DNA of 64,000 nt from Polaribacter marinaquae. Its GTDB lineage: Bacteria; Bacteroidota; Bacteroidia; Flavobacteriales; Flavobacteriaceae. Each line of letters starts with the position of its first letter. The first letter of the stretch is position 1. The notes under the pieces were generated by a model that did no database searches, had not been told where the DNA came from, and saw only the letters and a list, made by a program, of their open reading frames with translations. The translations under genes were made by a program, and so were the position numbers. Positions 37,382 to 41,489 of this stretch are shown piece by piece. The stretch lies in the NCBI RefSeq assembly GCF_038019025.1, contig NZ_CP150496.1, positions 1,380,001 through 1,444,000 of the forward strand, in the 5' to 3' direction.

Positions 37382-37993
37382 ATGAAAAAAAAACTCACTA
37401 TTCTACTAAGCTTTTTATTATTAAGTTTTGGTATTAATTCTCAATCACAAAAAATCACTATCAAAGTAAAAAACCAAAGAAATAAACCTATTTCTGGTGC
37501 AATTATTTTAATAGATGATTTAAAGCAAGATAAAACTACTAATTTTAATGGAGTATTTAAAACTCGATTAAATAAAAAACCAAAAACAATTAGTGCATTT
37601 CATCCAGAGATTGGAATTACTAAAATTGCATACAACGGAAAAGAGAAAATTAACATTTACATAAGAGGTGGTAATGAAAAAGTAATAGTAAAAAATGCTG
37701 CAAATGAAGTCTCAGGAAACTCAATACAGTTTAATTCTATTTATGACTATCTAAGAGGAAAAGTTTCTGGAGTTAGTATTTCTGCTGATAATGTTATAAG
37801 AATAAGAGGTTATAATAGTTTCTCTGGAAATATGGATCCGTTATTCGTTCTTAATAATATTGAAGTACCAGAAAGTGTATTTGCAGCTATAGATCCAAAT
37901 GAAGTAAAAAAAGTCACCATACTTAAAGGACCAGATTCATCTAGCTATGGTGTTAGAGGAGCAAATGGTGTTATTGTTATTAAAACTAAGTAA
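37382..37993 (+). CDS. Exported plug-domain protein without beta-barrel
   Basis: 203 aa with signal peptide (MKKKLTILLSFLLLSFGINSQ), a carboxypeptidase-regulatory-like beta-sandwich (about 25-95, KNQRNKPISGAIILIDD) and then a TonB-receptor plug-like module (YDYLRGKVSGVSIS, IRIRGYNSFSG, PLFVLNNIEV, VTILKGPDSSSYGVRGANGV). It stops at VIVIKTK, precisely where the barrel would begin in SusC proteins. The frame is intact with a normal terminator after it, so it looks like a genuine stand-alone form. Function unknown; it could sit in the periplasm and interact with TonB. Confidence 0.8.
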   Translation: MKKKLTILLSFLLLSFGINSQSQKITIKVKNQRNKPISGAIILIDDLKQDKTTNFNGVFKTRLNKKPKTISAFHPEIGITKIAYNGKEKINIYIRGGNEKVIVKNAANEVSGNSIQFNSIYDYLRGKVSGVSISADNVIRIRGYNSFSGNMDPLFVLNNIEVPESVFAAIDPNEVKKVTILKGPDSSSYGVRGANGVIVIKTK

Positions 37994-38077: not shown

Positions 38078-38268
38078 ATAAACTTACTGCGTTACTTAAA
38101 TCTTTTTAATAGCGTTTTTATCTGTTTTTTACTTCAATCAATTATACTTTAAAATTCAAATCTCCACTCTTTTTTAATAATACTATTATTTTAAATAAAA
38201 AAGATTTTAAATTAATGCGTCTTTTTAAACTTTTTTGAGTCTATTATATGAACATTAAAACAAATATC

Positions 38269-38370
38269 ATGAAAAATAAAAATTGTACATGCGATTGTAA
38301 TGGCTGCAAAAACGGATCTTGTAAAGACTGCACTTGCGTTAATTGCACATGTAATTCTTGTAATTGCTAA
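38269..38370 (+). CDS. 33-aa cysteine-rich, metallothionein-like peptide
   Basis: Frame from ATG 38269 to TAA 38370. The peptide has 11 cysteines in 33 residues, at positions 6, 8, 10, 13, 18, 21, 23, 26, 28, 31 and 33, arranged as C-x-C and C-x2-C pairs separated by Asn, Asp, Lys, Gly, Thr and Ser, with no aromatic or large hydrophobic residues. That is the composition of a metallothionein-type thiolate cluster, although it does not match a bacterial SmtA pattern I know. It has its own terminator at 38383, and a SigZ-like sigma gene with a Cys-rich tail follows 76 bases on. Chance is very unlikely given the periodic Cys codons. Confidence 0.75.
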   Translation: MKNKNCTCDCNGCKNGSCKDCTCVNCTCNSCNC

Positions 38371-38382
38371 AAATTAATTCAC

Positions 38383-38426
38383 AAAAAACGAAACAATCTT
38401 AACACTTTAAAATTGTTTCGTTTTTT
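38383..38426 (+). terminator. Terminator after the Cys-rich peptide gene
   Basis: Stem AAAAAACGAAACAAT / ATTGTTTCGTTTTTT with a loop of about 14 bases. It makes the peptide gene a separate transcription unit ahead of sigZ. Confidence 0.85.
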
Positions 38427-38446
38427 ATATTTTTTTACATTTAAAA

Positions 38447-38986
38447 ATGACTACAAAAGAAGTTTGGACATCTTATTCTGATGATTTAAAAAATTTTATA
38501 CTAAGTAAAGTAAAAAACTCTGAAATAGCAGATGATATTTTACAAGAAACTTTTATAAAAATACACACCAATCTTCATACTTTAAAAGATTTAAATAAAT
38601 TAAAATCTTGGTGTTTTACCATTGCTAGAAATTCAGTTTTAAATTATTGGAAAACCACAAATCAAACTTTTGAAATCGCAAATTTCGAATCTGAAACGAA
38701 CATTACTCTAAATAACCACACAGAAAAAGATTGCCTTAGAGGAATTATACAAAGTCTGCCAGAAAAATATAGAAAACCATTATTTTTATCTGATATCAAA
38801 GGTCTAAAACAACAGGATATTGCCTTTAAATTAGAACAAAGTTTATCAACCACAAAATCTCAAATTCAACGTGCAAGAAAACTAATTGCAAAAGGCTTTA
38901 TTGATTGTTGTGGCTTTAAATTCGATAAAAAAGGGAATTTAATAGGTGAAATTCAAGATAAAAAGGACTGTAAAGTCTGTAAATAA
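38447..38986 (+). CDS. sigZ: ECF sigma factor, SigZ-like, with Cys-rich tail
   Basis: 179-aa alternative sigma factor. Region 2 is at about 8-70 (ADDILQETFIKIH and SWCFTIARNSVLNYWK), region 4 at about 97-150 (LPEKYRKPLFLSDIKGLKQQ and STTKSQIQRARKLI). The C-terminal extension (151-179) carries CC at 154-155 and C-x2-C at 175 and 178, as in SigZ-type proteins; it may bind a metal or respond to thiol stress. No anti-sigma gene is adjacent, so the tail may replace one. Next come a PAS protein and two enzymes on the same strand. The SigZ name is by resemblance of size and tail. Confidence 0.85.
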   Translation: MTTKEVWTSYSDDLKNFILSKVKNSEIADDILQETFIKIHTNLHTLKDLNKLKSWCFTIARNSVLNYWKTTNQTFEIANFESETNITLNNHTEKDCLRGIIQSLPEKYRKPLFLSDIKGLKQQDIAFKLEQSLSTTKSQIQRARKLIAKGFIDCCGFKFDKKGNLIGEIQDKKDCKVCK

Positions 38987-39054: not shown

Positions 39055-39618
39055 ATGAGAAATAATTTGGCTGGTATGATGTGTTTAGATTTGTTTATGT
39101 CTTCACAAAATGAACACGATTATACGTATTTAAAAAGTCAAATTTCATCTTCGGATTTTCTTAAAGCCCCAATAAAAAGTTTTGACTTTTACATAGATTA
39201 TTTTACTGATGAAATAAAAAAAATCAACAGAAAAAACGATATCAATACAATAAAAGACTTTGCAAATAAGTTTAATTGGTGTAATGATGTAGATGCTATT
39301 TTTAAAAATCAAGATTTCGAAACAATTGTGCTTACGAATAAAGCTCAGGAAATTATTTGGGTGAATGATGGCTTTAAAAAAATGACAGGTTTCAGTAAAA
39401 AGTACGCTATTAACAAAACACCAACTTTTCTTCAAGGAGACAATACTTGTGAAGAGACAAGAGCTAGAATTAGAAAAAAATTAATAGCAAACAAGCCTTT
39501 TGAAGAAACAGTTTTAAATTATAAGAAAGACAAAACTGCATATAAATGCGAAATTAAAATCTTCCCTTTATCAATAGAAAACACAACGCATTATATAGCT
39601 CTCGAAAAGGCAGTTTAA
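39055..39618 (+). CDS. PAS-domain protein, LOV-like but without the photoactive Cys
   Basis: 187 aa, soluble. An N-terminal helical region (1-85) precedes one PAS domain (about 86-187): IVLTNKAQEIIWVNDGFKKM, TGFSKKYAI, TPTFLQGDNTCEETRARIRK, NYKKDKTAYKCEIKIFPL. The FLQG and NYKKDxTxY segments match LOV flavin domains, but the GxNCRFLQ Cys is Pro123 here (NKTPTFLQG), so no cysteinyl-flavin adduct can form. It could still bind a flavin or another ligand. No output domain is present, so it probably acts through protein contacts, perhaps with the sigma factor encoded 68 bases upstream. Confidence 0.8.
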   Translation: MRNNLAGMMCLDLFMSSQNEHDYTYLKSQISSSDFLKAPIKSFDFYIDYFTDEIKKINRKNDINTIKDFANKFNWCNDVDAIFKNQDFETIVLTNKAQEIIWVNDGFKKMTGFSKKYAINKTPTFLQGDNTCEETRARIRKKLIANKPFEETVLNYKKDKTAYKCEIKIFPLSIENTTHYIALEKAV

Positions 39619-39700: not shown

Positions 39701-40588
39701 ATGCAAAATTTAAAAAAAGAAGATATAAGTCAAGAAGTTTTTGATTTATATGACGATTATGCGCACAATAAAATGGACAGAAAAGAATTTTTACAAAAAC
39801 TTTCTTTATTTGCTGTTGGTGCAATTACCTTACCTTCTTTGTTAAGTTTTATTTCTCCTAATTATATTGATGCCATTACGGTTCGACCAGACGATCCAAG
39901 ATTAAAATCAGAAACAATACATTACGAATCTCCAAAAGGAGGTAAAAAAATGAATGGATTACTTTCTAAACGTGCAAAAAATATTAGAAAACTACCTGGC
40001 TTAATAGTAGTTCATGAAAATAGAGGTTTAAATCCGTATATAAAAGATGTTGGTAGAAGAGCAGCTTTAGATGGTTTTATAACATTAGCTCCAGATGCAT
40101 TAGCCCCTTTAGGAGGTTACCCAGGAAGTGATGATGAAGGTAGAGCAATGCAGAAGAAAAGAGATCGAATAGAAATGCTAGAAGACTTTATTGCTGGTTA
40201 CAATTATTTAAAAAATCATAAAGATTGCAACGGTAAAGTTGGTGTTGTAGGTTTTTGTTTTGGCGGATGGATTTCTAATATGATGGCGGTAAGATTACCA
40301 GAATTATCTGCTGCTGTACCTTATTACGGTAGACAACCAGAAGCAAAAGATGCAGTTAAAATAAAAGCTCCTTTACTTTTACAATATGCTGGTTTAGACA
40401 AAAGGGTAAACGAAGGTTGGCCTACATTTGAAAAAGTATTGAAAGAAAATAAAATAACATATACTGCACATTTTTACCCAGAAGTTAATCATGGTTTTCA
40501 TAACAATACAACACCAAGATTTGATGAAGCTGCTGCAGATTTATCTTGGGAAAGAACTATAGCTTTCTTAAAAACACACGTTAGATAA
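39701..40588 (+). CDS. Dienelactone hydrolase family alpha/beta-hydrolase
   Basis: 295 aa with an N-terminal helix and a hydrophobic stretch (about 30-50, FLQKLSLFAVGAITLPSLLS) that looks like a non-cleaved anchor or Tat-like export region after MDRKEF. The catalytic domain has the elbow GFCFGG (nucleophile Cys), D in GLDKRV and H in NHGFHN, the Cys-Asp-His triad of dienelactone hydrolases. The E-x-x-G segment VHENRGLNPYIKDVGRRAA is also present. Substrate unknown: cleavage of lactones or esters is implied. It follows the PAS gene by 82 bases. Confidence 0.88.
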   Translation: MQNLKKEDISQEVFDLYDDYAHNKMDRKEFLQKLSLFAVGAITLPSLLSFISPNYIDAITVRPDDPRLKSETIHYESPKGGKKMNGLLSKRAKNIRKLPGLIVVHENRGLNPYIKDVGRRAALDGFITLAPDALAPLGGYPGSDDEGRAMQKKRDRIEMLEDFIAGYNYLKNHKDCNGKVGVVGFCFGGWISNMMAVRLPELSAAVPYYGRQPEAKDAVKIKAPLLLQYAGLDKRVNEGWPTFEKVLKENKITYTAHFYPEVNHGFHNNTTPRFDEAAADLSWERTIAFLKTHVR

Positions 40589-40667: not shown

Positions 40668-41489
40668 TTGAAGAAACAGCAATTAATTAGTAAAGAATTA
40701 GAAGATTTTTACAACAAAGCTTCCGAAGAAACTCGCCTAGAAAAAGGTATGGGAATTTTTGAATTTGAACGTATTAAAGAATTAATACAACTTCATATTT
40801 TAAAAGATAAAATTACTGTTGTAGATGTTGGTGGTGGAACTGGCAAATATTCTGAATGGTTAGCGAAACAAAATCATACAGTGCATTTAATAGAACCTGT
40901 TTTAAAACATATAAAGCTTGCAGAAAAAAGAGCAAAAAAATTAAAAAAACCTTTTTCTGTAACTATTGGCGAAGCAAAAGAACTTCCTTTCAAAGACAAC
41001 TCAGCAGATTTAGTGATATTACATGGCCCTTTATATCATCTACAAAAAAGAGAAGATAGAATTGCAGCAATACTAGAAGCAAAAAGAGTTCTTAAAAAAG
41101 GCGGAATTATTTTAGGTTTCGCAATAAACGCAACTGCATCTACTGTTGTTGGGCTAATGAACGGAATGATACATGCAAATTCATTTTTTGATATGTGTAA
41201 AAAAGAATTAACTTCTGGTGTGCATAATGCGCCTAAAGATTTTCCTTTTTTATTAGCTGATTCCTATTATCATAAACCTGCAACTTTAAAAACAGAGTTT
41301 TTAGAGCAAAACCTTTCTTTTATAAATCTTTATGCTGTCGAAGGTATGATTTGGTTAGACAATGAATACTTTGCAAATATGTTAGATAAAAAGAAATCTA
41401 AAACTTTAAAATCTTTACAGAAATTAACTCAGAATGACGAGTATTTACTTCCATTTAGTCCGCACATGATGATTGCTGTAAAAAAATAA
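40668..41489 (+). CDS. Class I SAM-dependent methyltransferase, TTG start
   Basis: 273 aa with a Rossmann-like methyltransferase core: motif I VVDVGGGTGKYSEWL (about 50-64), acidic loop VHLIEPV, GEAKELPFKDNSADLVILHGPLYHL as motifs II-IV, and a C-terminal lid. The start is TTG at 40668; the frame has no ATG until residue 28, which would cut off the first helices (KKQQLISKELEDFY). Substrate unknown, small-molecule type by length. It is last in the sigZ-PAS-hydrolase run and ends at a shared terminator. Confidence 0.86.
   Translation: MKKQQLISKELEDFYNKASEETRLEKGMGIFEFERIKELIQLHILKDKITVVDVGGGTGKYSEWLAKQNHTVHLIEPVLKHIKLAEKRAKKLKKPFSVTIGEAKELPFKDNSADLVILHGPLYHLQKREDRIAAILEAKRVLKKGGIILGFAINATASTVVGLMNGMIHANSFFDMCKKELTSGVHNAPKDFPFLLADSYYHKPATLKTEFLEQNLSFINLYAVEGMIWLDNEYFANMLDKKKSKTLKSLQKLTQNDEYLLPFSPHMMIAVKK

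Follow-up and report, generated by a model that had tools for sequence, protein, structure and literature searches.

Sigma factors that carry their own cysteine sensor for a metal are exemplified by CorE2 for Cd/Zn and OrbS for Fe (PMC8999054, PMC9023288, PMC3107203). CorE2 of Myxococcus xanthus is activated by Cd/Zn via a Cys-rich tail containing a CC pair (PMC9023288, PMC8999054), and the former group ECF44, to which CorE and CorE2 belonged, is ECF238 in the new scheme, with CorE itself now unclassified (PMC8999054). OrbS of Burkholderia cenocepacia, likewise an ECF factor, senses metal through a Cys cluster of its own (PMC9023288). The locus described here lies in the window, the stretch of 64,000 nucleotides of Polaribacter marinaquae DNA that was analysed, and combines an ECF sigma factor bearing a Cys-rich tail with a 33-residue peptide that contains 11 cysteines. 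The family closest to this sigma factor is SigZ (TIGR02959/NF007215), which takes its name from the SigZ of Bacillus subtilis and for which we know of no assigned function. The metallothioneins, to which the peptide can be compared, comprise the bacterial SmtA/BmtA and MymT types as well as fungal and animal types; the known bacterial ones are under SmtB/CsoR-type repressors, whereas the mini-protein described here would be under an ECF sigma factor. A sequence-only reading of the window had proposed that a Cys-tailed regulator and a metallothionein-like peptide form one metal-response locus. The core of this hypothesis is supported by conservation and by a promoter shared with metal exporters, and further by the finding of Cys-rich mini-proteins beside other SigZ relatives.

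The sigma factor gene (38447..38986, plus strand) encodes 179 residues, in which regions 2 and 4, the only Sigma70 regions found, score above the Pfam cut-offs, as befits an ECF factor. NF007215 and TIGR02959 are the two best of its 88 NCBIfam matches, and the former aligns with residues 1-178, tail included. We use the name SigZ-like because the scores, 172.8 bits against a cut-off of 212 for NF007215 and 156.6 against 168.65 for TIGR02959, are below both curated cut-offs. The tail with CC and C-x2-C described in the sequence-only reading is indeed present and reads DCC...DCKVCK. Its cysteines, C154 C155 ... C175-x2-C178 (38906..38983, plus strand), which we propose as the metal-sensing site, are all invariant in an alignment of 25 of the 41 close relatives, as are H91, T92, E93, D95 and C96 of the HTEKDC motif (His91 to Cys96; 38717..38734, plus strand), where the interdomain linker meets region 4. 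Among 25 diverse relatives, which were picked for having Cys tails and include Bacillota and Rhodospirillales records, C154, C155, G163, C175 and C178 are invariant and C96 is conserved in at least 90%. The window protein shows the features by which we recognise SigZ-like relatives here, namely a CC-x-C-x(1-3)-C tail, G163 and Cys96; the tail is incomplete in five SigZ relatives (L224, L228, L229, L234 and L238). An AlphaFold model (mean pLDDT 82, pTM 0.44) shows clear ECF domains and a moderately confident tail, and the matches of a structure look-up covered mainly residues 1-158, with the tail outside. In one genome of the genus, a second, partial SigZ copy (residues 103-178; G004:C22:9349-9576) lies downstream of the full-length one.

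The comparison with the described systems shows both likenesses and differences. As with CorE2, the protein is an ECF sigma factor with a Cys-rich C-terminal tail and no anti-sigma factor known (PMC9023288, PMC8999054). The linker CXC of CorE (PMC8999054) is replaced here by a single cysteine, C96, in HTExDC at the linker end, and the tail is spaced CC-x19-C-x2-C, as against CC-x3-C-x2-C-x-C in CorE2 (PMC9023288). Because neither the linker nor the tail spacing agrees, the best reading, by analogy, is that the SigZ-like factor would work like CorE2 without being a CorE member. A further difference from CorE and CorE2 is that the most constant target here is a mini-protein. OrbS differs in that Fe(II) inhibits it, in its Cys spacing and in its siderophore targets (PMC9023288). 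Judged by analogy with these factors, direct sensing of metal by the SigZ tail appears reasonably probable.

The mini-protein gene (38269..38370, plus strand) was correctly read as a frame of 33 residues with 11 cysteines, and the gap of 76 nt that separates it from the sigma factor gene was also given correctly. A further ATG upstream, at 38248, shares the reading frame in no more than 4 of the 41 loci (the window, L068, L088 and L102), so that 38269 is the likely start codon. In the same GTDB genus, the peptide was matched in 42 of 58 genomes (E of 1 or better), and since one of these matches (G052) was spurious and was dropped, 41 genuine peptide genomes are left; at five weak secondary matches in the genus, no ATG-started Cys-rich ORF was found. 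Peptide and close SigZ occur together in these 41 genomes, and both are absent in the other 17. The peptide is always upstream of sigZ in the 40 fetched loci and in the window, at a distance of 2-167 nt in 40 of these 41 loci and of 702 nt in one. Profile searches of 397 genomes of the family detected the peptide in 67, SigZ (E 1e-55 or better) in 49 and both in 48. The sole SigZ genome of the 49 without a peptide match, G660, has a sigZ frame with two in-frame stop codons (G660:C3:142262-142795, L373), and no Cys-rich ATG ORF was found within 5 kb around it. In a set of 395 genomes of the phylum, the window-type peptide is present in five, each with a SigZ match above 245 bits.

Both the reading frame and the Cys spacing, whose conservation the sequence-only reading had taken as its touchstone, are conserved in relatives. 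A common Cys frame, CxCxCxxCx4CxxCxCxxCxCxxCxC, is found in 39 of the 41 peptides, with L100 and L106 deviating, and in these 39 a pN/pS of 0.18 indicates strong selection on the peptide; positions 1 and 2 of the Cys codons are invariant and position 3 is variable, and the conservation extends to the non-Cys residues and their spacing. In a chance control with much weaker criteria, only 12 of 4400 trials with Markov-resampled SigZ flanks yielded a Cys-rich ORF. The pairing of peptide and SigZ is not due to chance, and the peptide is almost certainly a real protein. Pfam and NCBIfam contain no family that matches the window peptide. At the Pfam level, none of 35 window-type peptides matched at E 0.01 and none of nine other mini-proteins at E 1, in searches run without a positive control and with composition filters that may hide Cys-rich matches. 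A PDB profile search with the peptides gave no match, and protein-database searches with a 40-aa reading of the peptide and with a 48-aa Pontibacter mini-protein returned nothing, by a method that requires shared exact words and makes such absence weak.

Upstream of the mini-protein, alignment of 41 upstream regions delineates a SigZ-type ECF promoter with -35 and -10 elements, TGCGTCTTTT-N13-GTCTA (38216..38243, plus strand), which begins TGCGTC... in the window and with which the conserved unit starts. A promoter of the type TGCATCTTTT-N13-GTCTA precedes the peptide in 41 of 41 loci with 0-1 mismatches. The spacing between -35 and -10 is 13 in 40 loci and 14 in one (L100), L088 has one change within the -35 element, five loci have an earlier TTCT with the -10 at the standard place in their sequences, and 24-29 nt separate the end of the -10 from the peptide ATG. 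In the window's genome, the site before the peptide and sigZ is the only one with at most one mismatch; up to two mismatches, 29 sites compare with 23 for the reversed control. Exact N13 copies across the genus amount to 51 sites, at least one of which (L149) sits inside a gene, in 35 of the 41 SigZ-containing genomes, and to none in the 17 genomes that lack SigZ, where allowing one mismatch gives 13 sites against 6 for the reversed control. In all likelihood, the promoter is driven by SigZ. The assignment is not a unique one in genomes with several SigZ factors, because paralogues share the -35 element.

Between the mini-protein and sigZ, folding predicts a hairpin (38381..38428), a probable attenuator or terminator, with -15.7 kcal/mol and a z of -7.1 against 50 mononucleotide shuffles; a terminator scan flagged it on the minus strand only. 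A z of -2.5 or lower against such shuffles was obtained in 35 of the 36 loci folded, those with gaps of 21-259 nt, the other five of the 41 being left out. The earlier suggestion that the peptide has its own terminator stands as far as the presence of a hairpin in the gap is concerned. In four of the 41 loci, however, the gap is 2-3 nt and the hairpin is absent, and it can therefore be surmised that reducing read-through into sigZ is a likelier role of the hairpin than terminating the unit; this would probably give much peptide and little SigZ.

The genes that share this promoter in relatives provide the link to metals. When sites away from the peptide and DUF3703 genes were inspected in 20 regions, CDF genes were found downstream at L140, L141, L146, L147, L151 and L152, a CzcA-type gene at L156, a TonB receptor at L145 and a P-type ATPase at L143. 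Eight sites inside genes (L148, L149, L153-L155 and L157-L159) were dropped as chance, and four N14 sites were not counted as targets: that of L144, and those of L142, L143 and L150, which represent one gene set and overlap a frame of 355-380 codons. A directed test covered every match to zinc-exporter-like CDF proteins (E of 1e-40) among the 58 genus genomes, 19 in total, with an element defined by at most two mismatches and a 13-nt gap. Such an element lies 10-59 nt before the match in 16 of 17 CDF genes of SigZ-containing genomes and in neither of the two in genomes without SigZ (G054 and a distant one in G006); the exception among the former comes from a 68%-complete genome (G033). Only one SigZ match at E of 1e-20 is present in 12 of the 16 CDF-site genomes. 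The window's own genome has no CDF match at E of 1e-40 and no site above background except that of peptide and sigZ, so that the metal link there rests on relatives.

The identities of these targets agree with metal export. One CDF example scored above the NCBIfam cut-off for the CDF family, the best specific model, ZitB, being below its own cut-off, and single examples of the other genes exceeded the family cut-offs for heavy-metal and cadmium-family P-type ATPases, CusA/CzcA and the RND adaptor, so that Czc and ZntA-type genes are among the targets in relatives. The order is small His-rich protein, site, TonB receptor, site and CDF in L319-L321, site, CzcA, adaptor and ATPase in L323, and CzcA, adaptor, site and ATPase in L326, gene identities beyond the tested examples being assigned by sequence resemblance. 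In 19 of the 41 loci the peptide is preceded by a DUF3703 gene (PF12487, one example tested), and 17 of these 19 genes have the element. Among the few one-mismatch sites inspected, L328 precedes a desaturase-like gene and L329 and L330 fall inside genes. Sites before TonB receptor and CzcA genes are partly palindromic (CATCTTTT...AAAAGATG; L319 3732, L320 3608, L321 3765, L322 7352, L323 1062), and a second regulator may act there.

We propose that the SigZ-like ECF factor would carry its own sensor, Cys96 together with C154-C155...C175-x2-C178, onto which a thiophilic metal, most likely Zn/Cd and possibly As(III) or Cu, would be loaded. The metal-loaded holoenzyme would transcribe from TGCATCTTTT-N13-GTCTA, and its first product, the 33-aa, 11-Cys peptide, would act in the cytosol as a metallothionein-like buffer and sequester the metal, while more SigZ would come from attenuated transcription beyond the hairpin. 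In many relatives the same promoter would also drive the DUF3703, CDF, Czc and ZntA-type genes, and SigZ would go silent once the metal is chelated or exported. The role of a metal buffer is likely. The peptide is very short, consists of cysteine to one-third, contains CxC and CxxC repeats and is free of F, Y, W and H, in keeping with the small, Cys-rich, aromatic- and His-poor character expected of metallothioneins; its Cys spacing is unlike that of the metallothionein families known to us. That the locus is a metal-stress circuit is very likely, and its fuller form, an autoregulated circuit of Cys-tailed SigZ, metallothionein-like buffer and, in many species, Zn/Cd efflux, remains likely on the sequence evidence. 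It would give the SigZ-like family a concrete, testable role and add a family of metallothionein-like proteins, for whose window member a protein catalogue search returned nothing, while the shared promoter offers a handle for reading the regulon across many genomes, with relevance to marine flavobacteria. If this is true, control of a metallothionein by a sigma factor that has a built-in Cys sensor would constitute a new wiring of metal homeostasis. The open-licence full-text literature yielded no paper linking SigZ with metallothionein or, in Bacteroidota, with metals, and the papers that mention SigZ together with arsenic look incidental.

Beyond the window type, 105 ECF loci were examined, comprising 80 SigZ relatives and 25 fetched loci of the phylum, with window-type loci excluded. 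A CC...C-C tail is present in 44 of them, and 28 of these 44, all from Bacteroidota, have a Cys-rich mini-protein (a same-strand ORF of 15-90 aa no more than 500 nt away) beside them, as against none of the 61 loci without this tail; since the thresholds, which were identical for the 61 controls, were set after loci had been seen, the proportion of 28 in 44 is descriptive, and three of the 28 (L243, L247 and L254) are genomes already in the genus set. These loci include records of Capnocytophaga, Pontibacter, Winogradskyella, Lutibacter, Seonamhaeicola, Oceanihabitans, Gelidibacter, Bizionia and Flammeovirga, and their mini-proteins vary widely in length and sequence. That of Flammeovirga pacifica (L258) has 89 residues with many cysteines, and its only database match is one identical cluster that has neither a name nor a Pfam domain. 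Where the mini-protein is upstream of SigZ, the element is found before it in 22 of 22 loci with 0-3 mismatches, those of L214 and L218 (3 mismatches) being no better than the best of 100 shuffles. In the six loci with a downstream mini-protein (L216, L219, L223, L226, L257 and L258), sigZ itself has the element in all six with 1-3 mismatches, and the mini-protein has its own element in four, beating all 100 shuffles; in L216 (3 mismatches) and L223 (4), it only equals the best shuffle.

These wider relatives raise the question of the signal, and the most serious alternative is that arsenite or a different thiol stress (Cu, Hg, oxidants), and not Zn/Cd, is the main signal of the circuit. A gene of the ACR3, ArsM or ArsI cluster (one example per cluster checked) lies near nine of the 16 tailed loci that lack a mini-protein, and two mini-protein loci, L222 and L232, have ACR3-cluster genes immediately upstream, so that the wider SigZ family points to arsenic and thiol-loving metals. 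In the window's genus, however, the shared promoter leads to CDF, CzcA/CzcB and ZntA-type exporters, and the arsenic-linked paralogues (L331 and L335) use another spacing, N12. Zn/Cd is thus suggested for the genus by its exporters and arsenic by the wider family; we lean towards Zn/Cd as the main signal here, and consider the arsenite alternative doubtful.

Paralogous SigZ factors in the genus share the -35 element with other spacings. A TGCGTCTTTTT-N12-CGTCTA type element lies before sigZ and neighbouring genes in the arsenite-methyltransferase loci L331 and L335, and in L333 and L336 the SigZ paralogue is followed by a desaturase-like gene preceded by a TGCATCTTTTT-N14-CGACTA type element; several other paralogous SigZ genes of the genus have no such element. 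It can be hypothesised, with about even chances, that the SigZ-like kind forms a widespread class of sigma factors in which thiol sensors for metals and metalloids are built in. Bacteroidota would have coupled them to hidden, phylum-wide metallothionein-like proteins of 26-89 residues and several designs, largely missed by protein catalogues, and the regulons of paralogues within one genome would be separated by the length of the spacer that follows a common TGCRTCTTTT -35 element: N12 would stand for arsenic, N13 for the mini-protein and Zn/Cd efflux, and N14 for another target.

The peptide might instead be a small regulator of SigZ, either a metal- or thiol-sensing partner of the anti-sigma kind or a metal chaperone that loads or unloads the tail, and not a bulk buffer. 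Such a role would fit its strict adjacency to and co-occurrence with SigZ in the genus, where no gene of 70 aa or more, apart from SigZ, adjoins SigZ in all loci, and the stops in the SigZ frame of G660, the only SigZ genome of the family that lacks the peptide. The distribution in the family argues otherwise. Of the 67 peptide genomes, 19 have no SigZ at the strict threshold, and their loci were all fetched: three (L355, L362 and L372) have a more divergent SigZ right behind the peptide, with elements of 1-2 mismatches, and in 16 a tblastn search with the window SigZ (E 1e-3) found no match over the 2-4 kb fetched, which contig ends cut short in some cases, a scope that leaves room for a SigZ weaker than E 1e-55 elsewhere in the genome. 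A Cys-rich ATG ORF is present in 14 of these 16 loci, that of L359 differing from the profile match, and was not found in L357 and L370; in 13 genomes the peptide is retained with an ATG start while SigZ is missing from the roughly 2 kb around it. The best site upstream of the stand-alone ORFs has 3-7 mismatches, and none has two or fewer. The peptide persists without nearby SigZ, and the SigZ promoter is then lost, the pattern expected of an effector peptide and a SigZ-owned promoter; it also follows that SigZ is not the only possible driver. As the mini-proteins of relatives are too diverse in length and sequence for a specific binding partner, an obligate anti-sigma partner was set aside, and we regard a small regulator as unlikely. 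The sigZ-like match that follows the peptide in L372 has an ATG ORF of only 78 aa and seems to be interrupted. In L354 and L365, the stand-alone peptide lies upstream of an ORF that looks, by eye, like a beta-carbonic anhydrase, a zinc enzyme.

It is very improbable that the peptide is a functionless attenuation leader, whose Cys codons would stall ribosomes at scarce Cys-tRNA under thiol or metal stress and let the polymerase pass the hairpin into sigZ. With a Cys-rich ORF and then a hairpin ahead of a regulator gene, the locus shows the classical arrangement for such a device, which should always be upstream with an adjacent terminator. However, selection on the peptide also covers non-Cys residues and spacing, the four loci with 2-3 nt gaps have no hairpin, and one gap reaches 702 nt. 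Moreover, six mini-proteins are downstream of SigZ, four of them with a promoter element of their own better than all 100 shuffles, and the stand-alone copies of the 13 genomes have no nearby sigZ to attenuate. That the peptide is a secreted or modified, RiPP-like product made with the hydrolase and methyltransferase that lie downstream on the same strand in the window is hardly credible, as it lacks a leader segment, these two genes are not found near over half of the loci, and the genes under the shared promoter are metal exporters.

The sequence-only reading had placed a PAS protein, the hydrolase and the methyltransferase downstream on the same strand, as they are, but they lie outside the conserved core: relatives of the PAS-domain protein (39055..39618, plus strand) are found near 8 of the 41 loci, of the dienelactone-hydrolase-like, YghX-like protein (39701..40588, plus strand) near 18, and of the SAM methyltransferase with a TTG start (40668..41489, plus strand) near 17, the window being included in each count, and we consider them accessory. 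The PAS protein is similar to LOV domains of the YtvA type (NF052652, E 5.9e-17, below cut-off), with TPTFLQG, lacking Cys, where LOV domains hold their photoactive cysteine. Upstream of the promoter, at 37382-37993, a 203-aa protein has a TonB plug and a SusC/RagA signature without the barrel, and its cluster is found near 4 of the 41 loci.
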